DNA of 24,010 nt, taken from a virus. The position numbers and the translations under genes are program-made. Under the pieces are notes generated by a model. That model did no database searches. It was not told the origin of the DNA and saw nothing but the letters and a program-made list of their open reading frames with translations. Shown here one piece after another: positions 1,839 to 14,036 of the stretch. The DNA is taken from IMG/VR virus record IMGVR_UViG_3300021964_000529, positions 1 to 24,010 of that record. One strand, given 5' to 3'. The stretch's first letter is position 1; each line of letters begins with the position of its first letter.

Positions 1839-2281
1839 ACTATTAAATCCAATACCGTTTGTAGTTTATCTTTAATGGCTTTATTTTGAAGTGTATTACG
1901 TAGTCCTACATGTAAAGGTTTAGGCCAGCAGTTTACATTTGTCCAAGCATATCCAGAATGTTCATGATTAAGTGTTGGAATAAATTCATTATCTACAATA
2001 GCAAGATACGTGTGAAAGAAAAATTTACTGTCGTTTGATGTAAACATTTCTAAAGGTATTACTTTTTTAATAGGTGGAGTTTTACCAACTTCTTCACTAA
2101 TCTCACGTTCTAATGCTTTCCACGGAGTTTCATTTCCTTCTGCCATACCGCCAACAAGCCCCCACTGACCAGCAGTTTTTGTTTTGGTACGTTCTAGGAA
2201 TAGAAATCGTTTGGTATTGCGGGCATAAAATAATGCTCCACTACAAACTATATTTTTATCTTTTAAAGTACTAGTCGCCAT
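1835..2281 (-). CDS. Nudix hydrolase
   Basis: A 148-residue protein with an almost canonical Nudix box, G-x5-E-x7-REIxEExG, at residues 45-66 (G45, E51, R59, E60, E63, E64), preceded by the usual GQWGLVGG strand. The Glu cluster binds Mg2+ and the enzyme cleaves a nucleoside diphosphate linked to another moiety; the substrate cannot be read from the sequence (oxidised dNTP, ADP-ribose, NADH, diadenosine phosphates and RNA caps are all possible in this superfamily). The only available ATG (2281) lies inside the 3' end of gp15, a 19-nt overlap, so translation is likely coupled. The 3' end overlaps the zinc protein by ATGA. A perfect TATAAT lies on this strand at 2295-2290, but no convincing -35 goes with it. 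Confidence 0.93.
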   Translation of the reverse strand: MATSTLKDKNIVCSGALFYARNTKRFLFLERTKTKTAGQWGLVGGMAEGNETPWKALEREISEEVGKTPPIKKVIPLEMFTSNDSKFFFHTYLAIVDNEFIPTLNHEHSGYAWTNVNCWPKPLHVGLRNTLQNKAIKDKLQTVLDLIV

Positions 2282-3690
2282 GACCCTTTATTATATTCAC
2301 CTTCATAACTTTTTAACCAAGCGCCAGTTTCGTTTGTGTATTTGTACTGTACGCCTGTATATGTATTAGTTATGTAGACAGGGTCTTGTGCCACGCTAGA
2401 ATCGGCACGTTCGTCGTTTGATCCAGCATCGAAAGTAATTTCCCAATTTGTGCCATTCCATGTAATAATATCATTAGCACTTGCTTGTAATATTGTTCCG
2501 TCTGCATTTTGCCAAGCATTCATATTTGCATCTGAACTATCATTCTTAATGTGCTGATGAATGTCATTTAGTATAAGATATCTTGTACCTGCATTAGATG
2601 CACTAACATTTGGGTTATAAGTTAATGGATCAATAATAGCATCAACTGTTCCTCTACTAGTAATACTATCAGTTAGCACTGTGTTTTCAGGTACAGTATC
2701 ACTATCAAAACTTAACACTATCTCTGTGTCATCTGTTGGATTTACACTTGCTGTAGCAACAATTTCATTACCGTCTGCTTTTGCAAGTCTTACTGTACTT
2801 AATCCTGCTCTAAACTTTCCTGGATATTGATCTAATAATTTGTACCAACTTACAGGTTCCCCAGTTCTATCAAATTCGCCTGCACTAGGTTCACTAACAC
2901 CTTCGCTTGGTGATAACAACCTTGCTGTATTGTTTAATACTAGTAAGCCAAAGTTTCCTGGCGTAATATTTACTGTTGCTATAGGACTTGCTGAATCAAT
3001 AATACCATCACTAATACTTCCGGTCTCGTCAAACACACTCATAATAATTTTTTCAATAACACCGAGTTGTTTAACTTTTGCAGGAGGTGTAATCCATATA
3101 GGCATTGTGAATGTAAGTTCGCCAATATCAATTTCTGTATCAACACCCTGTGGTATAGCACGACTTGAATAGTTTACACTTGCTAGTTCAATTAAACTTA
3201 AACTAGTCCAATCAATATAGTTTGCTGTGCTTTGAATTTCTAAACTTGGATTAAACAACACAAGCATTTGTTCCATAATTTGCAATTTTTGATCTGTGTT
3301 TGTTGACCATATATCACATTTCATTTGCAAGTTAAATGGCACAGGCATTAATCTTTCTACTGTGTACCCTGGTCCTTGACTTTGTAAGTACTCGCCAGTT
3401 GCATCGTCATAATCTCTTTCACGTAAATGTACTTTACTTACGTGTGTAGGGTTTTGTACTCTGTCTCTAGCATATTCTAAACCTGTAATATAACAACTAA
3501 TACGTGGAGCACTAATTACTTTGTTTTCTGAGTTGTCACGGATAATATGTGCTACTTGGCGTGTTAGATTACCGTAACTTGTCGGAATCTTGCGAAGTGT
3601 TCCTGCACTGTCTTTGTAACTAAAGTTACTCATAACACGTACAAACTGTGTTACAAATCTACGTATCTGTCCATCATAAAAATGTTGCAT
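2263..3690 (-). CDS. 15: Tail sheath stabilisation/completion protein gp15, C-terminally extended
   Basis: A 475-residue protein whose first ~225 residues match the T4 gp15 pattern: an N-terminal HFYDGQIRRF followed by a hydrophobic stretch, then PTSYGN, a central region ending in FNP, and a strand-rich end including FTMPIWITPP. In T4, gp15 forms the hexameric ring that caps the contractile tail and joins it to the neck. T4 gp15 is about 272 residues; here an extra ~240 residues follow, Thr/Asn/Asp-rich and probably beta, with two Trp/Tyr modules near residues 400-420 and 437-460 that recur in gp14 and gp18. The ATG overlaps the gp14 stop by one base (TAATG), so translation is coupled. A fairly distant AAGGCGGA lies upstream. 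Neighbouring gp14 and gp13 complete a neck cluster. Confidence 0.85.
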   Translation of the reverse strand: MQHFYDGQIRRFVTQFVRVMSNFSYKDSAGTLRKIPTSYGNLTRQVAHIIRDNSENKVISAPRISCYITGLEYARDRVQNPTHVSKVHLRERDYDDATGEYLQSQGPGYTVERLMPVPFNLQMKCDIWSTNTDQKLQIMEQMLVLFNPSLEIQSTANYIDWTSLSLIELASVNYSSRAIPQGVDTEIDIGELTFTMPIWITPPAKVKQLGVIEKIIMSVFDETGSISDGIIDSASPIATVNITPGNFGLLVLNNTARLLSPSEGVSEPSAGEFDRTGEPVSWYKLLDQYPGKFRAGLSTVRLAKADGNEIVATASVNPTDDTEIVLSFDSDTVPENTVLTDSITSRGTVDAIIDPLTYNPNVSASNAGTRYLILNDIHQHIKNDSSDANMNAWQNADGTILQASANDIITWNGTNWEITFDAGSNDERADSSVAQDPVYITNTYTGVQYKYTNETGAWLKSYEGEYNKGSWRLVL

Positions 3691-4868
3691 TAATTATCCG
3701 CCTTAGGTTTAAGTACTTGTGATAGTGCTTGACGTTCTTCAACTTGTTTGTTGTTAATTGTATTGGTGTTTGTGTTATTAACAAAAGTACCAAGTTGTGT
3801 TTTAGCATTGTCGCTGGTCATTGGTTCAACTCTTACACCGTCTTCAACTTTTGTCCATCTAGTTCCATTATATCTAAACAATCTGTTTGGAAAATAGTCT
3901 GTTCTTAAAAAATAATCACCTTCACCACTGCCCTGTGGAAACTGGCTACCAAATCCATAAGGTGCTCCGTTAAGTGGTGCTCCGTCTCCAGTTAAGTATC
4001 CAACATAAAAATTAGCATTAGGAGTTTTAATAATAGCACTAGCGTCAATACTTGTACTAGAAACTTTTACATCACTTGCTGATCCGTCCTGTGTAAGCAC
4101 ATTACCTTCAGCGTCAGTTGGAACAACAAAATACTGTTTGGTATCATAACCACTAATAACAGGTTGATTAGGATCGCCTGTAATATCTTCATTTGCTTGG
4201 TTTAGCACTGCTTCATTAATCTGCATTTCTTTTTCATATGTTGAAAGCACATCACGTATTGTTGATCCTGTGCCTTCGCCACTGTCTTTATCAAAGATTT
4301 CTTTAAATTCTTGGCTATCAATAATTGGTTTTGCTTTTACCCTTAACAAATGTGGATACCAAGTTTGACTGAATCCTTCTGCACTTCTGTTTACATCTTC
4401 AATAACATAAAAACGCTTAAGAGCAACCCGATAGTCATTAAGTGCGTATTCGTCTTTTAGGTGCGGCAGTTCTAGAACATCACCGCTCATTAGTTTTCTG
4501 CCCAATGCTTCGACAGAACTATTAAGATGAAATGTTACAAAAATTGTATCATTTTGTAGGAACATACCAAACTGACTTAGATCAAAGTCTAGATCCTGTA
4601 CGTTGTAAATTCCTCTAATAGAATACACATCATCTGAATACTTTCTATCTCTGTTTTCTAAAAACAGCAAATCCTGTATTTTTGTTTCAGGAATATCATT
4701 TGTACCGCGAGGTTGACTAGCAGTAGCATTATCGCCTGGATCAACAGGACCTTCATATTTGTGTATGAATATGTCAGTACCGCCGACCTGAAATGCTTCA
4801 TTAACGTTCTTGTCAATAAAACGATAGTCTGCTGATTTCTCCGGTTTGTATAAACTTAATCTTGGCAT
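3690..4868 (-). CDS. 14: Neck protein gp14
   Basis: The start is set at the ATG at 4868 (residues MPRLSLYKPE...), giving 392 residues. The frame is open further up to 4940, but that stretch crosses the divergent promoter and the start of the opposite gene. Residues 60-190 follow the T4 gp14 layout: a segment ending DLSQFGMFLQND (compare SNFGMQVQDE in T4), then GDVLELPH and a strand-rich region ending near WYPHLLRVK. T4 gp14 joins gp13 in the neck that closes the head after packaging and receives the tail. The protein is longer than T4 gp14 (256 residues). The additional C-terminal part carries the module GDYFLRTDYFPNRLFRYNG (residues 317-335), followed by RW. A late-promoter octamer lies 8 nt upstream of the ATG. 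The stop overlaps the gp15 start. Confidence 0.82.
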   Translation of the reverse strand: MPRLSLYKPEKSADYRFIDKNVNEAFQVGGTDIFIHKYEGPVDPGDNATASQPRGTNDIPETKIQDLLFLENRDRKYSDDVYSIRGIYNVQDLDFDLSQFGMFLQNDTIFVTFHLNSSVEALGRKLMSGDVLELPHLKDEYALNDYRVALKRFYVIEDVNRSAEGFSQTWYPHLLRVKAKPIIDSQEFKEIFDKDSGEGTGSTIRDVLSTYEKEMQINEAVLNQANEDITGDPNQPVISGYDTKQYFVVPTDAEGNVLTQDGSASDVKVSSTSIDASAIIKTPNANFYVGYLTGDGAPLNGAPYGFGSQFPQGSGEGDYFLRTDYFPNRLFRYNGTRWTKVEDGVRVEPMTSDNAKTQLGTFVNNTNTNTINNKQVEERQALSQVLKPKADN

Positions 4869-4876
4869 AGTAATTG

Positions 4877-4884
4877 TATTTATT
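4877..4884 (-). promoter_or_regulatory. Late promoter octamer of gp14
   Basis: Read leftward, the octamer AATAAATA is followed by CAATTACT and the gp14 ATG. It matches the T4-type late -10 (TATAAATA) at seven of eight positions. It forms one arm of a perfect inverted repeat with the rightward octamer at 4886-4893. With T4-like geometry, transcription would begin about 3 nt before the ATG. Confidence 0.7.
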
Positions 4885-4885
4885 G

Positions 4886-4893
4886 AATAAATA
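4886..4893 (+). promoter_or_regulatory. Late promoter octamer of the fibre-like gene
   Basis: AATAAATA sits 24 nt before the ATG at 4918, leaving room for a short leader with GGAG at 4902-4905 (12 nt from the ATG, a long spacing). It is separated by one base from the opposing gp14 octamer, so the two promoters share the palindrome TATTTATTGAATAAATA. Confidence 0.65.
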
Positions 4894-4917
4894 TGAGTAA
4901 CGGAGAAACTGATTACC

Positions 4918-6816
4918 ATGGCGCAATTAACAATTAACACAGGATCTAGTGCAGGAGCAGGAGATGGCGATAGTCTTTATTCTGCCTTTAACAAGGTCAA
5001 TACCAATTTTACAGAAGTATATACTAGAATTGTAGCACTAGAAGATGGCAGTATTACCACAAATGTTATTGGTGATGTTCGCGGTAGTTTGTATGCTGAC
5101 GATAGTACAACATTAGTCGATGCTATAAGCGGAACACACTATGGCAATTTTGTTGGTAATTTAAAAGGCAGTGTAGTAGGTGATGATAGCACACCTATCA
5201 TAGATGGTGTAAGCAGTTCAATAAATTTAAATGGAACTGTTAAAGGAAATATTGTGCCAGATACTAATATTGCCTATGACATCGGCAGTTCAACAAAAAG
5301 ATTTAGAGATTTATATCTTTCAGGTAACACAATAACAATCGGTAATCAAACACTTTCAACAACAGCAACAGGAATTACAAGTTCAGGTACATTAACAGCA
5401 AACACTATTCAGTTAGGAACAGCAACAATCACATCAAGTGGAAGTGGAATACAAATTAGTGGTAATCTTTCCACAGGCAGTGGCGTAACAAAATCTCAAG
5501 GATTGGTTGGATTTATTTACGATGCCGGTCCTGTTAGCACATTACATAAGATAGATAAAGCACTGTTTAGTGATGTAATTGTGAGAGATATTAATGGAGT
5601 AGTAGATTCTGTTGCCACAGCAAGTGCTCAAGCAACAACCCATACTTTCTTATCAGGCTATCATATTACAGATACTGGCGGTTCAGCAAGATATAATGAT
5701 AGAACAGAATACAAAAATTATCTAGACGGTAATCCTGCCATAGAATCAGATCCATTTGGAAGTGTAATTAAGGCTGTAACTGATGGCGGCGGCAGTTTAA
5801 TTGGAGTTGAAGTAGATAAACGTGGCGAAAATGCTGGTCCGGGAGACAATCTAACAGTACAGTGTATTAACCCAAGTCAAGAAACTTTATCAATTGATAC
5901 AACAGACTCAACAGCATTCTATAACAGTCCATCATATTCGACTGCTTGGAACACAGTATTTCAAGACTATGTTGACAGATCGGGACTTGTACTTGACGGA
6001 TATCTACGAGATAGCACAGGTCAAGTTCAAGGGTGGACAGGCTACGTAAACGCTAATTGGGATTCAAGTATTTCTAATGTTGCTAGTACATATCCTTGGC
6101 TACAGTACGAAAGAAGAGTTATATTAGAATGGACCGGAGGTTCAGAAACTATAAGTCAAAATAGATTGCTAGACGACGGAACAGTTAATCTTCCTGTAAC
6201 TGCCGGTGGAAAATTTGCTGGTAATGCTGTAGGAGTTTCTAGTTCTTTAGTACTAAAGGTCCAAGAAAGATCAAAAATAATTGCCTATAGCAAAACATAT
6301 AGTGGAAGTTTCACAATTGATGGACAAACACTTAATGCTACAGTTTCATTTAATCCGTTACAAAACAATTTTGGTACATTAACTGGTGCTACTATCCAGG
6401 GTGGCGGTCCTATTCCAGCAGGAACTTTAAGTGATCTTGTTGATGCTGAAACAAATGGTATTGTATTCAATATAGATGATAACGGAACTGTAACATCAGG
6501 TAGTGGAGTTACAGGTACTATGGGAGTGTTCATTTATTTTAATGAACTTGGATATAAAGTTTTACCTTTAATAGGAAAATACGAAGACTATCAAGAATCA
6601 ACGCAAATTGCTGGTAGCAGTAATACAAGCACTGTTTTAACACCAGGGCCAGAACCGATGCCAGATCCATTGGCACTACCTCCTGTGCTAATCGCAAACG
6701 GAACACTAGCGGTAGCAGATGGTACTAATTGGGATCCAAATGGCGACGGAACACAAGCATTAATGATTTACTTAAACGGGCAATGGTATAAAGTAAACCT
6801 AACCCCAGTACCATAA
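4918..6816 (+). CDS. Fibre-like virion structural protein next to the neck genes
   Basis: A 632-residue, Gly/Ser/Thr-rich protein without long hydrophobic segments. The N-terminus has the pattern GDSLYSAFNKVNTNFTEVY (residues 18-36), common at the start of phage fibre and attachment proteins. It is followed by repeats of the type V/L-K/R-GS-V/L-Y/V-x-DDST-x-L/I-D-G (residues 51-110) and DIGSSTKRFRDLYLSG (121-136), a motif I recall from marine phage fibre and structural proteins. The C-terminus (595-632) holds the Trp/Tyr module also seen in gp14, gp15 and gp18. In T4 the neck whisker (fibritin, wac) gene sits directly before gene 13; this gene occupies the same place before gp13, so a neck-fibre role is plausible but unproven. 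A tail or baseplate fibre is the alternative. Stop to next ATG is 17 nt. Confidence 0.72.
   Translation: MAQLTINTGSSAGAGDGDSLYSAFNKVNTNFTEVYTRIVALEDGSITTNVIGDVRGSLYADDSTTLVDAISGTHYGNFVGNLKGSVVGDDSTPIIDGVSSSINLNGTVKGNIVPDTNIAYDIGSSTKRFRDLYLSGNTITIGNQTLSTTATGITSSGTLTANTIQLGTATITSSGSGIQISGNLSTGSGVTKSQGLVGFIYDAGPVSTLHKIDKALFSDVIVRDINGVVDSVATASAQATTHTFLSGYHITDTGGSARYNDRTEYKNYLDGNPAIESDPFGSVIKAVTDGGGSLIGVEVDKRGENAGPGDNLTVQCINPSQETLSIDTTDSTAFYNSPSYSTAWNTVFQDYVDRSGLVLDGYLRDSTGQVQGWTGYVNANWDSSISNVASTYPWLQYERRVILEWTGGSETISQNRLLDDGTVNLPVTAGGKFAGNAVGVSSSLVLKVQERSKIIAYSKTYSGSFTIDGQTLNATVSFNPLQNNFGTLTGATIQGGGPIPAGTLSDLVDAETNGIVFNIDDNGTVTSGSGVTGTMGVFIYFNELGYKVLPLIGKYEDYQESTQIAGSSNTSTVLTPGPEPMPDPLALPPVLIANGTLAVADGTNWDPNGDGTQALMIYLNGQWYKVNLTPVP
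5068..5247 (+). repeat. Degenerate fibre repeats inside the 4918 gene
   Basis: Residues 51-110 contain two clear and one partial copy of a ~27-residue unit: DVRGSLYADDSTTLVDAISG, NLKGSVVGDDSTPIIDGVSS and TVKGNIVPD. The pattern of alternating hydrophobics and DDST turns suggests a trimeric beta-fibre. Divergence at DNA level is high, so it is a protein-level repeat. Confidence 0.6.
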
Positions 6817-6819
6817 GAG

Positions 6820-6827
6820 GTTAAATA
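6820..6827 (+). promoter_or_regulatory. Late promoter octamer of gp13
   Basis: GTTAAATA ends 6 nt before the gp13 ATG at 6834, with GTATAT between. There is no Shine-Dalgarno at a useful distance (AGAGG at 6816-6820 is 13 nt away). The spacing predicts a transcript starting at or within a base or two of the ATG. Confidence 0.55.
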
Positions 6828-6833
6828 GTATAT

Positions 6834-7595
6834 ATGAGCAACGATTTAGAAAACAAAAAACAACAAATTTTTAATTACTGTCGCACACTACTTGGCGACG
6901 GAATGATCGATGTTGAACTTGATCCTAATCACTATGAAGTAGCACTGGAAAAAGCACTAGGCAAATACAGACAACGTGCTGAAAATGCCGTGGAAGAATC
7001 CTATGCTATACTAGAATTACAAGAAGATACCAACGATTATATTCTTCCAAACGAAGTTATGGAAGTAAGAGAATTGTTTAGACGTTCAATTGGCTCTAGA
7101 AGCGGTGGCGGAGATGGAGGTACATTGTTTGAACCTTTTAATCTTGCTTACTCAAACACATATCTTTTAAGTTCAACACAGATGGGTGGACTATCAACTT
7201 ACTATGCTTTTGCAGGATATCAAGAACTAGTAGGCAGAATGTTTGGTAGTTTTATCAACTTTAAATTTGAACCTGTCAGTAAAAAACTTACAATCATGCA
7301 ACGTCCAAGAGGCGACGAGCAGGTACTAATGCAAATCTACAACCAACGTCCAGACTTTAACTTGCTATCTGATCCATACGCAGGACAATGGTTAAAAGAT
7401 TACACACTAGCAGTTAGCAAATACATGCTAGGTGAAGCACGTTCTAAATTTGCTACAATTTCAACACCACAAGGTGGCACTTCACTTAATGGCGATGCAC
7501 TAAAAGCAGATGCCGCGGCTGAAATGGAGAAACTGGAAATGGATTTGGCAAATTACGTAGATGGCAGTAAGCCATTATCTTTCGTAATTGGCTAA
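6834..7595 (+). CDS. 13: Neck protein gp13
   Basis: A 253-residue protein with the gp13 layout: an acidic/polar helical N-terminus (NYCRTLLGDGMIDVELDPNH, residues 14-33), a helix containing ALEKALGKYRQRAENAVEES, and a central PNEVMEVRELFRRSIG segment. T4 gp13 (309 residues) works with gp14 to close the filled head and form the tail attachment site; the protein here is shorter, as I recall for marine relatives. The C-terminal ~80 residues are helical and alanine-rich (EARSKFATISTPQGG, then ADAAAEMEKLEM). The neighbouring gp14, gp15 and sheath gene support the call. The ATG has no Shine-Dalgarno but is preceded at 6 nt by a late octamer. Family assignment is by pattern, not by a search. Confidence 0.78.
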   Translation: MSNDLENKKQQIFNYCRTLLGDGMIDVELDPNHYEVALEKALGKYRQRAENAVEESYAILELQEDTNDYILPNEVMEVRELFRRSIGSRSGGGDGGTLFEPFNLAYSNTYLLSSTQMGGLSTYYAFAGYQELVGRMFGSFINFKFEPVSKKLTIMQRPRGDEQVLMQIYNQRPDFNLLSDPYAGQWLKDYTLAVSKYMLGEARSKFATISTPQGGTSLNGDALKADAAAEMEKLEMDLANYVDGSKPLSFVIG

Positions 7596-7602
7596 AAACA
7601 AC

Positions 7603-7631
7603 TTGACTTTCCACATTAATGACTATACAAT
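7603..7631 (+). promoter_or_regulatory. Sigma70-like promoter of the dNMP kinase gene
   Basis: TTGACT (7603-7608), a 17-bp spacer and TACAAT (7626-7631): each hexamer is one base from consensus with ideal spacing. The start would be near 7638, between the upstream stop (7595) and the ribosome binding site. An ATG at 7619 in the same frame as the kinase lies inside this promoter, so it cannot be the start on this transcript. Confidence 0.75.
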
Positions 7632-7648
7632 TTAAGGATACTTTTAAT

Positions 7649-7654
7649 AAAGGA
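7649..7654 (+). promoter_or_regulatory. Ribosome binding site deciding the dNMP kinase start
   Basis: AAAGGA lies 6 nt before the ATG at 7661. It selects 7661 over the in-frame ATG at 7619, which has no such site. Confidence 0.7.
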
Positions 7655-7660
7655 TCTTTT

Positions 7661-8311
7661 ATGATTATTGGCATTTGTGGACTCATAGGTTCGGGTAAAG
7701 GAACCGTTGCAGACTTCTTGGTAGAGCAAAGAGGCTTTACAAAAATATCATTTGCAGATAAACTCAAAGACGGTGTTGCTAGTGTGTTTGGTTGGGACCG
7801 AGAAATGCTAGAAGGCAACACAGAAGATTCACGTGCTTGGCGCGAAAAAGTAGATCCTTACTGGAGTACAGAACTAGGTAAACCTGTAACTCCTCGTTTG
7901 GTGCTACAACTGTTTGGTACAGACTGTATGCGTAATGGCTTCTATGATGGTATATGGGTAAGCCTAGTAAAACAGCAATTACTTGCACATCCTGAAACAG
8001 ATTTTGTTATACCCGATGTACGTTTTGAAAATGAAGCAGAAATGATTCGTTCTATTGGTGGTAAACTATGGCGTGTTAAACGAGGCGATGACCCCGAATG
8101 GTGGGAAATTGCACAAACAGAGATGCGTCAAAAAGCGGCACAGAAACAATCAAAAGGCATTGTTGTATCACACAAAATGGAAGACAAATACCCAGATGTG
8201 CATATCTCAGAATGGGCGTGGGCGAATGTAGAATTTGACGCTGTAATTGAAAATGATAGCAGTGTTGAGTTTCTTAAAAATCGGGTGTTAAGTCACCTTG
8301 TTTCCAAGTAA
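7661..8311 (+). CDS. 1: Deoxynucleoside monophosphate kinase (T4 gene 1 type)
   Basis: A 216-residue kinase beginning at the P-loop: MIIGICGLIGSGKG (Walker A GLIGSGKG at residues 7-14), followed by SFADKLKD, the lid and base-binding region, PDVRFENEAEMI (118-129), GGKLWRVKR (133-141) and HISEWAW with DAVIEND near the end. These are the hallmarks of phage dNMP kinases, which phosphorylate dTMP, dGMP and modified dCMP to diphosphates for phage DNA synthesis; T4 gp1 is 241 residues. The start at 7661 is chosen because of the AAAGGA site and the sigma70-like promoter just upstream. It is a metabolic gene between structural genes with its own early-type promoter. Its 3' end overlaps the convergent HNH gene by 38 nt. 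Confidence 0.9.
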   Translation: MIIGICGLIGSGKGTVADFLVEQRGFTKISFADKLKDGVASVFGWDREMLEGNTEDSRAWREKVDPYWSTELGKPVTPRLVLQLFGTDCMRNGFYDGIWVSLVKQQLLAHPETDFVIPDVRFENEAEMIRSIGGKLWRVKRGDDPEWWEIAQTEMRQKAAQKQSKGIVVSHKMEDKYPDVHISEWAWANVEFDAVIENDSSVEFLKNRVLSHLVSK

Positions 8312-8612
8312 ATCCTTGTTTGTGTAGTATTCGCTGACAGTTTGCACACACTGTTTTAAGATTACCGTGCCTACAGTTTGTTAGTTTACCATCTATATGA
8401 TACACTGCAAATTGCTCCTTGTGATTGCTTTCAAATCCGCACTTGTCACACTTGTCTTTTTGCCTATAACCTAGAGTATACCACATAGGTGTACTAGGAG
8501 TTCTACCTCTAGCACATTGTTCGCACTTACTTCTATAGTAGGTTTTACGACCCTTTTTATAATTAACTGCACAGGGTCTACGTTTACATGATTTACATAA
8601 TGGTCTTGTCAT
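8274..8612 (-). CDS. HNH-like zinc protein (putative endonuclease)
   Basis: A 112-residue protein. The frame is open up to 8666, but the ATG at 8612 is preferred because a late octamer GGTAAATA ends exactly 5 nt before it and the extra residues are only Arg/Lys-rich. It has two zinc-ribbon CxxC pairs in the N-terminal part (C6/C9 and C30/C33) and an HNH-type core: C55xxC58, YHIDG (H72), GNLKTVCANC (N84, C89, C92). The first His, the Asn and both CxxC of the HNH fold are present, but the usual final His of CxxCH is Gln (Q93), although H97 is close. It could be a nicking or homing-type nuclease, or a DNA-binding relative without nuclease activity. It is alone on this strand between gp13/dNMP kinase and gp18. 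Confidence 0.75.
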   Translation of the reverse strand: MTRPLCKSCKRRPCAVNYKKGRKTYYRSKCEQCARGRTPSTPMWYTLGYRQKDKCDKCGFESNHKEQFAVYHIDGKLTNCRHGNLKTVCANCQRILHKQGFTWKQGDLTPDF

Positions 8613-8617
8613 AATTG

Positions 8618-8625
8618 TATTTACC
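8618..8625 (-). promoter_or_regulatory. Late promoter octamer of the HNH gene
   Basis: On the minus strand GGTAAATA is followed by CAATT and ATG, a 5-nt spacing. The sequence TAAATACAATTA is shared with the gp14 promoter. No Shine-Dalgarno at normal distance. Confidence 0.6.
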
Positions 8626-8680
8626 CGCCCTTTTCGATACCTTTTTCGCTGTATATTATACCGCATTTTTGGATCTTGTT

Positions 8681-8688
8681 GCTAAATA
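8681..8688 (+). promoter_or_regulatory. Late promoter octamer of gp18
   Basis: GCTAAATA lies 34 nt before the sheath ATG, predicting a leader of about 30 nt that holds a strong AAAGGAG ribosome binding site at 8708-8714, 8 nt from the ATG. This is the leadered late-promoter type expected for a very abundant protein. Confidence 0.7.
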
Positions 8689-8722
8689 TGTTTAAGAACT
8701 TAAATTTAAAGGAGTTAAAAAG

Positions 8723-11700
8723 ATGGCACTATCATCACCAGGAGTTGAAGTCAGCGTAATTGACGAAAGTTTTTACACGCCAGCCACAGCATCTACAGTA
8801 CCACTAATTATTGTAGCAACGGCGGCTAATAAGCCTAACGGCGCAGGTACAGGAACTGCCGCAGGAACACTTTCCGCGAATGCAGGTACACCTTACCTAA
8901 TTACATCACAAAGAGAATTAACAGAAACGTTTGGTAATCCAACGTTCTATACAGATTCTAGCAACAATCCGTTACATGGTAACGAATTGAATGAATATGG
9001 TCTACAAGCGGCATATTCATTCTTGGGTGTTGCTAACAGAACATATGTTGTTCGTGCAAATGCAGATTTAGGCGAACTAACAGGTGCATCATCAGCACCG
9101 GCAGGTACACCAGCAGATGGAACATATTGGTTAGACACTAATGATTCATTATATGGTGTATTTGAATGGGACAAATCAACACAAAAATTTGCTAACAAGG
9201 CTCCATTAGTTCTTAACTCCGCTACAGACCTTGTTGGAAACGTAAGTTCAGGTGATCCAAAATCAAGCGTAGGATCAAAAGGTGACTATGCCATCGTCAC
9301 TGCTAGAACATCAAACGATGTTTACTACAAAAACGCAGATAACGTTTGGGTTAAAGTAGGTACAACTACAAGTGCAAATGTTGCAAGTGCGGCAGGAAGC
9401 ACATTTACTTCAGACAGTTGGGCATCAAGTTGGCCAACTATCCAAGCAACAGTTGCTTCACCAACTTTATCATCAGGTCATGCTGTAAATATTAATGGAA
9501 CTGCTGTTACAATAAGTGGTACTACTGTATCAGATTTAGCAACAGCAATTAATGCGGCAAGTATTACAGGTGTTGCGGCAAAAGTTACAGCAGGTGGAAT
9601 TTTAGAAATTTACACAGATGGAACTTCAAGCACAGACGGTACAACAGACGACGGAGCAATTATTATTGCAGATGCTACAGGTGATAACATCTGTGACACA
9701 CTAGGCATTGTTGAAACTTACTATGCTGGTCCAGAAGTACAAATTAGCAAACACTCAAGTGTTCCTACTTGGAAGTCAACTGATACATTAACTGTAGCAG
9801 GCACTTCACACAGTGCTAACAGACCAACAGGTAGTGTATGGTTTAAAACTTCAGTACCAAACCTAGGTGTAAAACTTACTACAAAAGTATGGAATGATAC
9901 ATTAGGTGCATGGACAAGTGTAAACACACCGGTCTACAACACAAGACAACAAGCAGTTTATGAAATTGATTCAACAGGTGGAACACAGATTCCAGCAGGA
10001 ACAGTTTTTGCTCTTGCAAACTATACAGGTAGAGCAACAGCAGATGATTCAACAACAGGTGTTGAAGAATTAGTAAACTTTAAATTATACAGACGTGTTA
10101 CAAGTTCACCAACTACAGTTACAGGTCAAGAGCAAGGTGCAAATCCAACTGTAACCGCAGGTTCGTTTACAATGGCAGAAACACTTGCTAACTCAGGTGA
10201 ATTTAATACTGCACAAAGTATTAGTGTAGGTGGTACTACTGTAGAAGACGTTGCAACAGCAATTAGCAGTAAAGGATTTACTAATATTGTTGCAAGCGTA
10301 TCAAACGGCTTCCTAACTATTTCACACAAATTAGGCGGCGAAATTAAAATTACTGACACTTATGGTTTATTTGCAAGTGCAGGATTTACTGGTTGGTCAA
10401 GAAACAGTGCAACTGGTGTAGAAAGCGGATCCGCTAACTTCTACACAGCAGGTGCAGACGATGACAACACATTTGTTATCTCTAACTGGAAACCACTAGT
10501 ATACCAAGCAAGCAATGATGCTCCGACAGCAACTCCAGCAGACGGAACATTATGGTATGACACTACAGTTGATGAAGTGGATATCATGGTAAACGACGGA
10601 ACTAAATGGGTAGGTTATCTAAACTACACACCATATGCTGGTGCAACTGATCCTAATGGTCCGATTGTAAGTGCTACAGAGCCTAAGAAAACAGGCGGAC
10701 AAAGTGATAACACAGATTTAGAAGAAGGTGATATTTGGGTTGATACTTCAGATGTTGAAAAGTATGGTCAAAACGTTTATCGTTGGGACAACACTGCACT
10801 TGAATGGGTAGCAATTGATGTTACTGATCAAACAACAGAAGACGGTATTATTTTTGCAGATGCACGTTACGGTTCAAGTGGTGCAACTGGAGATACTAAA
10901 GCAGATATCGACGATCTTTTAAGCACAAACTATGTTGATCCAGACTGTCCGGATCCAGCACTTTACCCACGTGGTATGTTGCTATGGAACACAAGACGTT
11001 CAGGTTTCAATGTTAAGAAATTTGTAAGAGGACATGTTGACATTACAGCAAACAGTGGTAAAAACACTCGTTACTTAGACGAAGCAATGACTTCATACAA
11101 AACAAATCGTTGGATTGGTTGGAACACAACTAAATCAGATGGTTCAGGATTATTTGGTAGACACGCTCAACGTGCAACAGTAGTTGCGGCGATGAAGGCA
11201 AGTGTAAATGCAAACGAATTGCTACGTGACGAAGAGACACGTAACTTTACATTGTTAAGTGCTCCAGGTTATCCAGAACTTACAACAGACTTAATTAACT
11301 TAAACGTTGATAGAGGTATTACAGGATTTGTGGTTGGAGATACTCCATTTAGACTACGTCCTACTGCTACTGAGTTACAAAATTATGGTAACAACACAGC
11401 AAGTGCCGCTACTGACGGTGAAGAAGGACTTGTAAGTTATGATGAATACATGGCGGCATTTTATCCATCAGGACTAACAACAGACATTAATGGTAACAAC
11501 ATTGTTGTTCCAGCATCACACATGATGCTACGTACTATTGCAGTAAGTGATGCAGTTTCTTATCCATGGTTTGCTCCAGCAGGAACAAGACGTGGTGGCA
11601 TTACTAACGCATCAGCAGTTGGTTACATTGACGGCGAAGGTGAGTTTAATGCTGTTGCATTGAATGACGGTGTTCGTGAAACAATGGCTGGTGTTAAAAT

Positions 11701-12106
11701 TAACCCACTAACATTTATTACTGGTAGTGGATTGGTTAACTTTGGTCAATACACAAGAGCAAGAAATGCAAGTTCATTAGATAGAATTAACGTTGCACGT
11801 TTAGTTGCTTATCTAAGAAGACAGTTTAGTTTGCTTGGTAAGCCATTTATGTTTGAACCAAATGATAAAATCACACGTGATGAGATCAAGCAAGCAATGG
11901 AAAGCCTATTATTAGAATTAGTAGGACAAAGAGCAGTTTACGACTTCTTAGTTGTATGTGATGAAACAAACAACACACCAGCAAGAATTGATCGTAATGA
12001 ACTCTATGTTGATGTTGCAATTGAACCAGTTAAGAGTGTGGAATTCATTTACATTCCATTACGCCTAAAGAACACAGGCGAGATAGCAACTTTGGGCAAT
12101 CTATAA
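8723..12106 (+). CDS. 18: Tail sheath protein gp18, unusually long
   Basis: A 1127-residue contractile sheath subunit. The N-terminal ~120 residues start with MALSSPGVEVSVID and contain the family's SFLGVANRTYVVRAN strand. The sheath fold resumes near residue 707 and includes YPRGMLLWNTRRSGF (748-762) and the conserved C-terminal region from VNFGQYTRARNA through LRRQFSLLGKPFMFEPND to the beta-strand end. T4 gp18 is 659 residues; the excess is a ~580-residue insertion (about 121-705) rich in Gly/Thr/Ser/Asp. The insertion holds five Trp/Tyr modules and two copies of an INGT-type module (about 254-299 and 498-540). Insertions at this place in T4 sheath point outward, so these are probably surface decorations. 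The gene has its own late promoter and strong ribosome binding site, and gp19 follows 35 nt later. Confidence 0.95.
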   Translation: MALSSPGVEVSVIDESFYTPATASTVPLIIVATAANKPNGAGTGTAAGTLSANAGTPYLITSQRELTETFGNPTFYTDSSNNPLHGNELNEYGLQAAYSFLGVANRTYVVRANADLGELTGASSAPAGTPADGTYWLDTNDSLYGVFEWDKSTQKFANKAPLVLNSATDLVGNVSSGDPKSSVGSKGDYAIVTARTSNDVYYKNADNVWVKVGTTTSANVASAAGSTFTSDSWASSWPTIQATVASPTLSSGHAVNINGTAVTISGTTVSDLATAINAASITGVAAKVTAGGILEIYTDGTSSTDGTTDDGAIIIADATGDNICDTLGIVETYYAGPEVQISKHSSVPTWKSTDTLTVAGTSHSANRPTGSVWFKTSVPNLGVKLTTKVWNDTLGAWTSVNTPVYNTRQQAVYEIDSTGGTQIPAGTVFALANYTGRATADDSTTGVEELVNFKLYRRVTSSPTTVTGQEQGANPTVTAGSFTMAETLANSGEFNTAQSISVGGTTVEDVATAISSKGFTNIVASVSNGFLTISHKLGGEIKITDTYGLFASAGFTGWSRNSATGVESGSANFYTAGADDDNTFVISNWKPLVYQASNDAPTATPADGTLWYDTTVDEVDIMVNDGTKWVGYLNYTPYAGATDPNGPIVSATEPKKTGGQSDNTDLEEGDIWVDTSDVEKYGQNVYRWDNTALEWVAIDVTDQTTEDGIIFADARYGSSGATGDTKADIDDLLSTNYVDPDCPDPALYPRGMLLWNTRRSGFNVKKFVRGHVDITANSGKNTRYLDEAMTSYKTNRWIGWNTTKSDGSGLFGRHAQRATVVAAMKASVNANELLRDEETRNFTLLSAPGYPELTTDLINLNVDRGITGFVVGDTPFRLRPTATELQNYGNNTASAATDGEEGLVSYDEYMAAFYPSGLTTDINGNNIVVPASHMMLRTIAVSDAVSYPWFAPAGTRRGGITNASAVGYIDGEGEFNAVALNDGVRETMAGVKINPLTFITGSGLVNFGQYTRARNASSLDRINVARLVAYLRRQFSLLGKPFMFEPNDKITRDEIKQAMESLLLELVGQRAVYDFLVVCDETNNTPARIDRNELYVDVAIEPVKSVEFIYIPLRLKNTGEIATLGNL
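9083..10837 (+). repeat. Modular insertion in the sheath protein
   Basis: Residues ~121-705 of gp18 are built from short repeated modules. Five are of the type GTxWxDT...Y.W/N...W: at nt 9095-9172, 9278-9358, 9824-9922, 10532-10618 and 10724-10816. Two longer modules share a core of TTVSDLATAIN / TTVEDVATAIS followed by a strand ending LEIYTD / LTISHK (nt about 9473-9622 and 10211-10330). The second type resembles the hook-IN type motif of flagellar hook-associated proteins. Confidence 0.6.
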
Positions 12107-12141: not shown

Positions 12142-12768
12142 ATGGCTATTTCAAGTTTAAGTAAATTTACAGTTCCGTTGGCAAGTGACCAGTCAGCAAG
12201 TTCACAAGGCTTGTTGATGCCGAAACTCAAGTATCGCTTTAGAGTGAGTCTTGAAAACTTCGGCGCAGGTGCACCTAACATCGAACTAACAAAACAAATT
12301 ATTGATGTTACAAGACCAAATGTAAACTTTGAATCAATTGCGATTGATGTTTACAACTCAAAAGTTTACTACGCAGGTAAACACACATGGCAACCAATTA
12401 CAATCACAATACGTGATGATGTAAACAATGCTGTGAGCAAGAGTGCTGGTCAACAGTTACAGAAACAGTTCGATTTCTTCGAACAATCAAGTGCGGCAAG
12501 TGGTATCGACTACAAATTTAAAACTAGAATTGAAATTCTAGATGGTGGTAACGGTGCTAATAGTCCAAATGTACTTGAAACATTCGAACTAGTTGGTTGT
12601 TTCGTACAAGATATTAACTACAATCAATTGAGTTACGGAGATTCAAATCCGGTTGACGTTACTATGTCAATTCAATACGATAACGCTATCCAAACTAATG
12701 GTGCTGGTCAGCCAGAAGGTATTGGTACAGCGATTGGTAGAACAATTAGAACCTTAGCAACAGGTTAA
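12142..12768 (+). CDS. 19: Tail tube protein gp19
   Basis: A 208-residue protein. Visible family features are the N-terminal KLKYRFRVSLENFG (residues 28-41), the strand segment with DVTRPNVNFES and YYAGKHTWQPITITIRDD (75-92), and the C-terminal FELVGCFVQDINYNQL with NPVDVTMSIQYDNA. Together these are the signature of T4-type tail tube subunits, which stack as hexamers inside the sheath. T4 gp19 is 163 residues, so this is modestly longer, with extra residues at both ends. The gene has its own late promoter and AAGGAG site and is followed at once by a strong intrinsic terminator, so gp18 and gp19 form a separately controlled pair. Confidence 0.93.
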   Translation: MAISSLSKFTVPLASDQSASSQGLLMPKLKYRFRVSLENFGAGAPNIELTKQIIDVTRPNVNFESIAIDVYNSKVYYAGKHTWQPITITIRDDVNNAVSKSAGQQLQKQFDFFEQSSAASGIDYKFKTRIEILDGGNGANSPNVLETFELVGCFVQDINYNQLSYGDSNPVDVTMSIQYDNAIQTNGAGQPEGIGTAIGRTIRTLATG

Positions 12769-12845: not shown

Positions 12846-14036
12846 ATGGCAAAGTTAACTAAATTTCTAGGATCAGTAGCGAACGGTATATTTGGCAGTC
12901 AAGGAGACATGCGTGATTACCAACATGCGGCAAGGTTGTTCACAGACAACTTTATGCGTTTATCTCCAAAAGTAGAATTTTTATATCATGTATATCTAGA
13001 TATTAATCCTACCGCAATTAGAACACCTAATCCTTTTTATGGATTCAATGAAGCAGAAGCAAGAATCGAAACTGGTATGCTTGTAAAGGGTTTTAATTTA
13101 CCCGGCGTTACTGTTAATACAGAAACAAAAAACCAATACGGTAAAAAGACAAACATTCAAACTGCAATACAGTACAATCCTGTTACAATGACGTTTCATG
13201 ATGATAACAATGGATTGATTGGAGGACTTTGGGAACAGTATTTCAAGAGTCAGTATGCTGATAGTCAATTTATTGATTTTTTACAAATTGAGCCAACTTA
13301 TAATTCACAAAAGTCTACAACTGAAACGTTAGTCGCAGGTACTAAAACCACAACAACATCAACTAAACAAACAGGATTAAAATTTGGTTTTGACAATTAT
13401 AAAAGTGTAAGATTTTTTAACAATATTAAACTATATCAACTTAGTAAAAAAAGATTTTTTGAATTTACATTAATCAACCCTATCATACAACAGTGGACAC
13501 CGCCTAACATGAACAGTGCAAGTAGTAATCCTGCTGAAAATCAAATGGTTGTAATATACGAAGGAATTAAGTATGCAACCGGACGGGTCAGTACAGAGAC
13601 TGTAAAAGGATTTACAGCCTTGCATTACGATAATATTCCTTCACCGTTAGGATCCGGAGCCGCTGGACTATTTGGCCAAGGCGGAGTATTAGCCGGAGGT
13701 TTAGATGTAGTTGGCGATGTGTTACAGGGAGACATTTTTACAGATCCTTTTGCACTACTAGGAACCGCAATCAAAGCCAAACGTACATATGACGGAGCCA
13801 AACAATTATCAAGCGAAGGTATAAAAAACGAAGTAACAGGTATTGTAACAAGAAGTGTTACAAACGCGGCCAACAGAACTATTACAATGAGCGGGTTTGA
13901 TACTGTTGATCAAACATTTGCTACTCCAGCAAATCAAGAAGAAACAGTTGTATACAATCCAGCACAGCAAATTAACAATGACAGTCAACAAGGCAATGGC
14001 GGCGAAGGTCAAAATAGTAGTACCAGTACTAGGTGA
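12846..14036 (+). CDS. Tail-tube-fold virion protein, possibly gp54/gp48-like tube initiator or cap
   Basis: A 396-residue protein. Residues 40-260 follow the architecture of tail tube-fold proteins: VEFLYHVYLDI (43-53), KGFNLPGVTVNTETKNQYG (81-99), NPVTMTFHDDNNGLIGGLWE (111-130) and a late strand VVIYEGIKYATGRV. The same order of elements (ligand strand, LPG turn, PVTMTFHDD, LWE) is seen in tube and baseplate-hub tube proteins. The C-terminal ~140 residues are Gly/Ala-rich then Asn/Gln-rich and probably flexible. In T4, gp48 and gp54 are tube-like proteins that start tube growth at the baseplate and also have extended tails; this is my best guess, and a tube paralogue or tail completion protein is the alternative. 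It has a late octamer 5 nt from the ATG and no ribosome binding site. Confidence 0.72.
   Translation: MAKLTKFLGSVANGIFGSQGDMRDYQHAARLFTDNFMRLSPKVEFLYHVYLDINPTAIRTPNPFYGFNEAEARIETGMLVKGFNLPGVTVNTETKNQYGKKTNIQTAIQYNPVTMTFHDDNNGLIGGLWEQYFKSQYADSQFIDFLQIEPTYNSQKSTTETLVAGTKTTTTSTKQTGLKFGFDNYKSVRFFNNIKLYQLSKKRFFEFTLINPIIQQWTPPNMNSASSNPAENQMVVIYEGIKYATGRVSTETVKGFTALHYDNIPSPLGSGAAGLFGQGGVLAGGLDVVGDVLQGDIFTDPFALLGTAIKAKRTYDGAKQLSSEGIKNEVTGIVTRSVTNAANRTITMSGFDTVDQTFATPANQEETVVYNPAQQINNDSQQGNGGEGQNSSTSTR

Follow-up and report, generated by a model that had tools for sequence, protein, structure and literature searches.

A short Trp/Tyr module probably shared by the tail sheath and neck proteins of a large T4-like phage lineage

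Does a short Trp/Tyr pattern that recurs in the virion genes of a 24-kb IMG/VR virus fragment (24,010 nucleotides; here called the window) represent a single module, and what might such a module do on the outside of a phage particle? The original prediction, made from the sequence of the window, was that one module is reused in four virion proteins, with five copies in the tail sheath protein gp18, one in gp14, two degenerate copies in gp15, and one at the end of a fiber-like protein. The isolates nearest to the window in gp18, gp15, and gp14 are Sinorhizobium phage Phosso, Agrobacterium phage Atu_ph07, Pseudomonas phage PA5oct with its relatives, Salicola phage SCTP-2, and phages of the RaK2 group; the window therefore belongs to a marine lineage of large T4-like myoviruses.

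The gene for the gp18-like tail sheath protein (8723..12106, plus strand; 1127 amino acids) matches PF17482 (E = 2e-15) and phrog_10581 (E = 1e-217), as well as the T4 gp18 profile and gp18 chains in the PDB (E = 3e-23), and its product carries the Phage_sheath_1C/T4 gp18 C-terminal core of a T4-type tail sheath. This conserved core consists of an N-terminal part (residues ~1-116) and a C-terminal part (~735-1127), and the modules lie within the large insertion between them. Immediately upstream of gp18 is an HNH endonuclease-like open reading frame (ORF) on the minus strand (8274-8666; phrog_2255, E = 2e-6), and beyond gp18 are two neighboring tail-tube-like genes (12142-12768 and 12846-14036), each matching phrog_4542, a pair annotated likewise in PA5oct, RaK2, and Phosso. 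The gp15-like tail terminator, or sheath stabilizer (2263..3690, minus strand; 475 amino acids), is identified as of the T4 type both by PF16724 (E = 1e-25) and by a Foldseek match of its model to T4 gp15 (9mkb_AB, E = 1.2e-8; also 4huh). Its N-terminal part and fold are like those of T4 gp15, but it has a module-bearing C-terminal extension of ~260 amino acids beyond the T4-like part. The small adjoining ORF (1835-2281) is NUDIX hydrolase-like in sequence, and a MutT/NUDIX gene also lies beside gp15 in RaK2 and PA5oct relatives; farther along, ORF 240-1124 (PF04820, E = 2e-66; phrog_2928) codes for the C-terminal part, but not the N-terminal half, of a tryptophan halogenase and is possibly an auxiliary metabolic gene. 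The gp14-like neck protein (3690..4865, minus strand; 391 amino acids; phrog_11591, E = 3e-87) is named by its position beside gp15 and near a gp13-like gene. It shares the gene neighborhood of T4 gp14, and its module lies in a long C-terminal part that may be an extension; any resemblance to T4 gp14 in sequence falls short of significance (hhalign E = 0.04-0.08, with a probability of about 1).

The translations and gene assignments of all nine predicted segments were as originally described. A regular expression of the predicted pattern was too strict, finding one match (in gp14), and profile tests were used instead. All pairs of segments were compared by hhalign, with 105 other 37-residue windows from the same alignments as controls; the alignments for the first comparison held 28 gp18, 13 gp14, 11 gp15, and 3 fiber sequences, and the deepened alignments held 50 gp18, 64 gp14, and 64 gp15 sequences. 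Four of the five predicted gp18 copies (M1, M3, M4, and M5) and the gp14 copy at residues 311-348 (3822..3935, minus strand) match one another above all 105 controls. The predicted gp14 copy is thus borne out, and it is also found with the module profile and with a hidden Markov model (HMM) built solely from tail-fiber copies (E = 0.004). The core group holds in the deepened alignments, apart from a few near-ties and one control window, c_gp14_235, which scored high against M5 and gp14 and contained a genuine second gp14 module of RaK2. RaK2 gp14 (2989-4449 of its locus, L089) has two module copies versus one in the window gp14. The fifth gp18 copy, M2, is weaker, and its reliable links are solely with M5 and gp14.

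As seen in these copies, the module is ~30-38 residues long and reads G-x-x-W-x-(D/K)-T, a loop, aromatic-x-(W/Y), a turn, and x-x-W-V. All of the gp18 copies are on the plus strand, and in the AlphaFold2 model of gp18 (mean pLDDT of 55; the core poor and the insertion mostly 60-90), M1 to M5 each form three successive strands. M1 (residues 127-163; 9101..9211), with conserved W136, W149, and F156, has strands E135-138, E144-150, and E155-159, and was found in a genome HMM search at E = 8e-14 with a profile that includes M1 itself. M2 (residues 184-216; 9272..9370) has a degenerate first strand (Y189), Y201/Y202, and W209, with strands E189-192, E199-203, and E209-211. M3 (residues 365-403; 9815..9931) has W373, an aromatic residue at 390, and W397 (strands E372-376, E384-391, and E396-405), and M4 (residues 599-636; 10517..10630) has W611 and W629 (strands E610-612, E615-624, and E629-631). 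M5 (residues 664-702; 10712..10828), with W672, Y681, Y686, and W695 and strands E671-673, E685-689, and E694-698, is the gp18 copy nearest to the general tail-fiber form described below (tail-fiber-only HMM, E = 3.7e-4; genome search with profile A8, E = 5.3e-6). The predicted unit is consequently a set of three successive strands and not the simple two-stranded beta-hairpin that had been proposed. A Foldseek search of BFVD with the gp18 model returned a related sheath and no useful match for the module.

The gp18 insertion also holds a sixth copy, M6, that is absent from the original prediction. Its first two strands (E428-432 and E453-458) lie in residues 420-461 (9980..10105), and its third, a predicted strand containing SNWKPLVY, lies in residues 586-600 (10478..10522). 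Atu_ph07 and Phosso have an unbroken M6, whereas a flagellin-IN-like domain divides the window copy at the turn between strands 2 and 3; M6 was overlooked because this domain occupies its hairpin turn. When the two parts were rejoined, the resulting profile matched M5 with a probability of 83, and none of 101 controls did as well. The inserted domain, IN2 (residues 474-572; 10142..10438), is the second of two such domains in gp18 and is paralogous to the first, IN1 (residues 245-341; 9455..9745), with a probability of 95.8. IN1 matches PF07196 (Flagellin_IN; E = 0.0015), the window score of 19.1 bits being below the curated cut-off of 22.7, and three members match this family, the best of them a relative with an E value of 2.2e-6; the top PDB matches of the IN-like domains by Foldseek are flagellin and FliD. 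IN1 and IN2 resemble the outer domains of flagellin and FliD in sequence motif and top fold matches, but they differ from them in lying within a phage sheath, where they alternate with Trp modules. IN2 is missing from the M6 site in Atu_ph07 and Phosso, and the placement of IN domains relative to the Trp modules varies: in these two phages an IN domain lies between M1 and M2, and M6 contains none.

Evseev et al. (2022) grouped sheaths with extra outer domains as type 3, with Atu_ph07, SCTP-2, and RaK2 among those modeled, and proposed adhesion or stability as functions of the extra domains (PMC9230969). The window gp18 is homologous to these three sheaths and likewise has a large insertion between the core halves. 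The passages of that paper dealing with the extra domains describe them mostly as Ig-like beta-sandwiches, and neither a short Trp module nor IN-like domains are mentioned there (PMC9230969). We found no match to any Ig family in gp18, gp14, or gp15, and an Ig-like identity was rejected; the antibody and titin matches returned by Foldseek had low probability and came from the low-confidence gp18 model.

The two copies predicted in gp15 are degenerate, and their standing depended on the depth of the alignments: with shallow alignments (11 sequences) the gp15 segments did not score above control, whereas in the 64-sequence alignment both beat every control against several modules. Copy a (2431..2592, minus strand) consists of a first strand, GTRYLIL, a long loop, and strands 2-3 (DIITWNGTNWEITF), and copy b (2287..2403, minus strand) reads VYITN..QYKYTN..AWLK. 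The AlphaFold model of gp15 (mean pLDDT of 64) has the same three-strand order twice in the C-terminal extension, as E370-373, E408-411, and E416-420 in copy a and as E438-442, E448-452, and E457-460 in copy b. The gp15 relatives are far more module-like than the window copy, with, for example, YTTNLNTGIQYRWDGTEWTLSFEG at copy b, and one of them has an extra module-like insertion. The best gp15 score with the tail-fiber-only profile was E = 0.055. Taken together, strand order and sequence in the unsuperposed models suggest, with modest confidence, that the gp18 and gp15 copies share one fold. A resemblance of the gp15 end to DUF2793 was considered and dropped, as there was no Pfam match.

The remaining predicted copy, at the end of the fiber-like protein, fared less well. 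The gene (4918-6816) occupies the interval between gp14 and gp13 on the other strand and has close relatives in only a few contigs; its place resembles that of the T4 fibritin gene (wac), which adjoins gene 13. The ADGTNWDP-type sequence at its C-terminal end (6685..6813, plus strand) was not above control when aligned with its own close family, and a diversified alignment gave a weak profile-profile signal by hhalign, strongest against M5. Single-profile searches gave E values above 1 (A2, E = 1.5), and the tail-fiber profile gave no match. Sequences of the ADGTNWDP type occur, terminally or internally, in proteins of other phages. We therefore do not accept the fiber end as a member of the module family, since it has no tail-fiber profile match and its profile-profile link is weak; it is a distant cousin at most.

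To describe the distribution of the module, we searched whole genomes with profile A2, made from 22 gp18 and gp14 copies. In Atu_ph07, PA5oct, SCTP-2, and Phosso, all of which contributed to A2, every match better than E = 0.007 fell in gp18 or gp14, and in RaK2 and Munch (whole genomes of 345-350 kb), which did not contribute, all A2 matches were likewise in gp14 and gp18; searches of the T4 genome with the module profiles gave no match. Across 4,586 ORFs from 168 related loci, A2 at E < 0.01 detected 136 of 146 gp18 and 100 of 104 gp14 ORFs and no others, gp15 included. Reuse of the module is also supported for tail-fiber genes: in three larger relatives (113-182 kb), two modules lie near the N terminus in each of three consecutive fiber-like genes, Atu_ph07 and PA5oct also have modules in genes of a similar type, and PHROGs labels several of these genes as tail fiber or collar proteins. 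The three consecutive paralogous fiber-like genes, with a common N terminus and two Trp modules each, are located at 3253-8608 (locus L203), 2805-8315 (L204), and 3777-9144 (L205). It had also been claimed that every copy lies in extra sequence not present in the T4 protein. This is the case for the gp18 and gp15 copies; for gp14, where similarity to the T4 protein is not significant, it cannot be shown.

Searches for a known identity gave little. Pfam and NCBIfam have no entry for the module, PHROGs has no named module family (yielding solely the parent protein families and weak matches), sequence searches of solved structures returned chance-level matches only, and our literature search for the motif found nothing. 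CBM_5_12 was rejected as an identity, its match being weak, limited to two gp15 relatives (best E = 0.003), and absent from the gp18 and gp14 modules, as was SH3_5 (12.8 bits against a cut-off of 22; E values no better than 0.034 for two A2 members).

What might the module do? Most likely, it forms a three-stranded antiparallel meander in which the three conserved aromatics pack as a mini-core, and such a mini-core would let the module fold almost alone, so that it could be inserted into loops or added at ends. Their invariance across all of the proteins that carry the module suggests that the aromatics hold it together. Within gp18, mean pairwise identity is 0.64-0.69 in the core, 0.47-0.53 in the modules, and 0.37-0.38 in the IN domains, while the glycine and aromatics inside the modules are nearly fixed, the pattern expected if the unit is exposed and its aromatics are needed for folding. 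In the arrangement that we propose, a general form widespread in phage tail fibers and tail-tip proteins would have been multiplied inside the outer insertion of gp18, where six copies now alternate with the two flagellin-IN-like domains, of which one is lodged in a module's turn, and would also have been placed toward the C termini of gp14 and gp15. Its most likely role would be that of a spacer and decoration unit thickening and stiffening the outer surface of the sheath, neck, and fiber stalks. That the unit has been multiplied, appended to protein ends, and opened up by an inserted domain while its aromatics stay fixed favors this reading, and we think it fairly probable that the gp18 and gp14 segments (firmly) and the gp15 segments (in degenerate form) are one virion module of this exposed kind. 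The sequence repeat, its distribution, its absence from the T4 genome, and the strand predictions are what the analysis shows; as the searches turned up no solved structure containing the module, we infer its exposure and role, and likewise the mini-core and descent from a common ancestor over convergence.

The same aromatics could instead make the modules weak glycan-binding units, with exposed Trp and Tyr providing many low-affinity contacts with cell-surface polymers. Adhesion of this sort has been proposed for phage Ig-like domains. The modules do occur in tail fibers and in the sheath insertion, a site at which additional domains have been proposed to promote adhesion (PMC9230969), and the sub-threshold CBM_5_12 match in two gp15 relatives points the same way. 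However, that match is weak and missing from gp18 and gp14, and conservation of the aromatics in every context is more readily explained by folding than by a binding face specific to the host, making glycan binding, in our judgment, somewhat unlikely.

The exposed-spacer reading also supposes that the copies in different genes are related, and here the evidence comes largely from tail fibers. A consensus query gave 677 matches across 218 phage records; those listed with annotations were mostly tail fiber, minor tail, and tail proteins, and the listed hosts were Vibrio, Mycobacterium, Acinetobacter, Synechococcus, Geobacillus, and others. Among ten matched proteins that were fetched, several contain two to six copies each, and their reversed sequences gave nothing significant. 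These GDxW...LYxYDGxxW repeats of tail fibers and tail-tip proteins have the same residues, length, and spacing as our module and occur in several copies per protein, but elsewhere they lie beside lambda-J-like or coiled-coil regions, whereas here they are inside contractile sheath and neck proteins. The tail-fiber-only profile (15 copies) detects 69 gp18 and 55 gp14 ORFs and one other ORF, with no matches to reversed sequences. By this cross-detection the gp18 and gp14 copies fall with the GDxW module, in a resemblance that is partly selected, as the tail-fiber copies were fetched with a consensus modeled on the motif. Direct detection fails in both directions between HMMs built from gp18 only and from gp14 only (best E = 0.69 and 12), and the two proteins are thus linked via the tail-fiber form. 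The expectation that the segments should find one another is accordingly borne out in profile-profile comparison and with the tail-fiber-only HMM, and fails in direct detection between gp18 and gp14.

That failure is what convergence would predict. Hairpins carrying aromatics and a D/N-G turn can readily evolve, the units are just 30-38 residues long, and the gp15 and fiber copies match mainly at the hairpin; on this account the copies in different genes would be unrelated. Against it, the copies also share the G-x-x-W-x-D-T first strand, a single tail-fiber-only profile recovers both gp18 and gp14, and the six gp18 copies are most simply explained as duplications. We consider convergence unlikely and, from sequence comparisons, homology of the gp18 and gp14 modules probable. 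The claim of one module reused in several virion proteins is supported in gp18 and gp14, has fairly good support in gp15, and is not supported in the fiber-like protein beyond a distant resemblance.

Finally, the modules could be joints, with gp14, gp15, and the first sheath rings interlocking at the neck-tail junction by like-with-like strand pairing, a notion that draws on the extensive contacts of the T4 gp14 C-terminal region (178-256) with gp15 203-245 (PMC12270204) and on the C-terminal positions of the copies in gp14 and gp15 here, but that seems improbable, as a neck joint explains neither six copies per sheath subunit nor the tail-fiber copies and as homology to T4 gp14 is not significant.

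Under the preferred reading of an exposed, self-folding spacer and decoration unit, a module that is common in phage fibers yet absent from Pfam and NCBIfam builds up the outer region of a contractile sheath and is found again in the neck. A bolder version, which we regard as quite unlikely, is that a single mobile mini-domain has been exchanged among sheath, neck, and fiber genes and has also offered a place for larger domains to be inserted, of which M6 would be an example; if so, the whole virion exterior would share one repeated surface unit, acting as a common coat or weak adhesive. A description of the module would help in annotating many hypothetical tail proteins, and it offers a testable case of how sheaths may become enlarged in large phages, through multiplication of a self-folding unit and insertion of domains at its turns.
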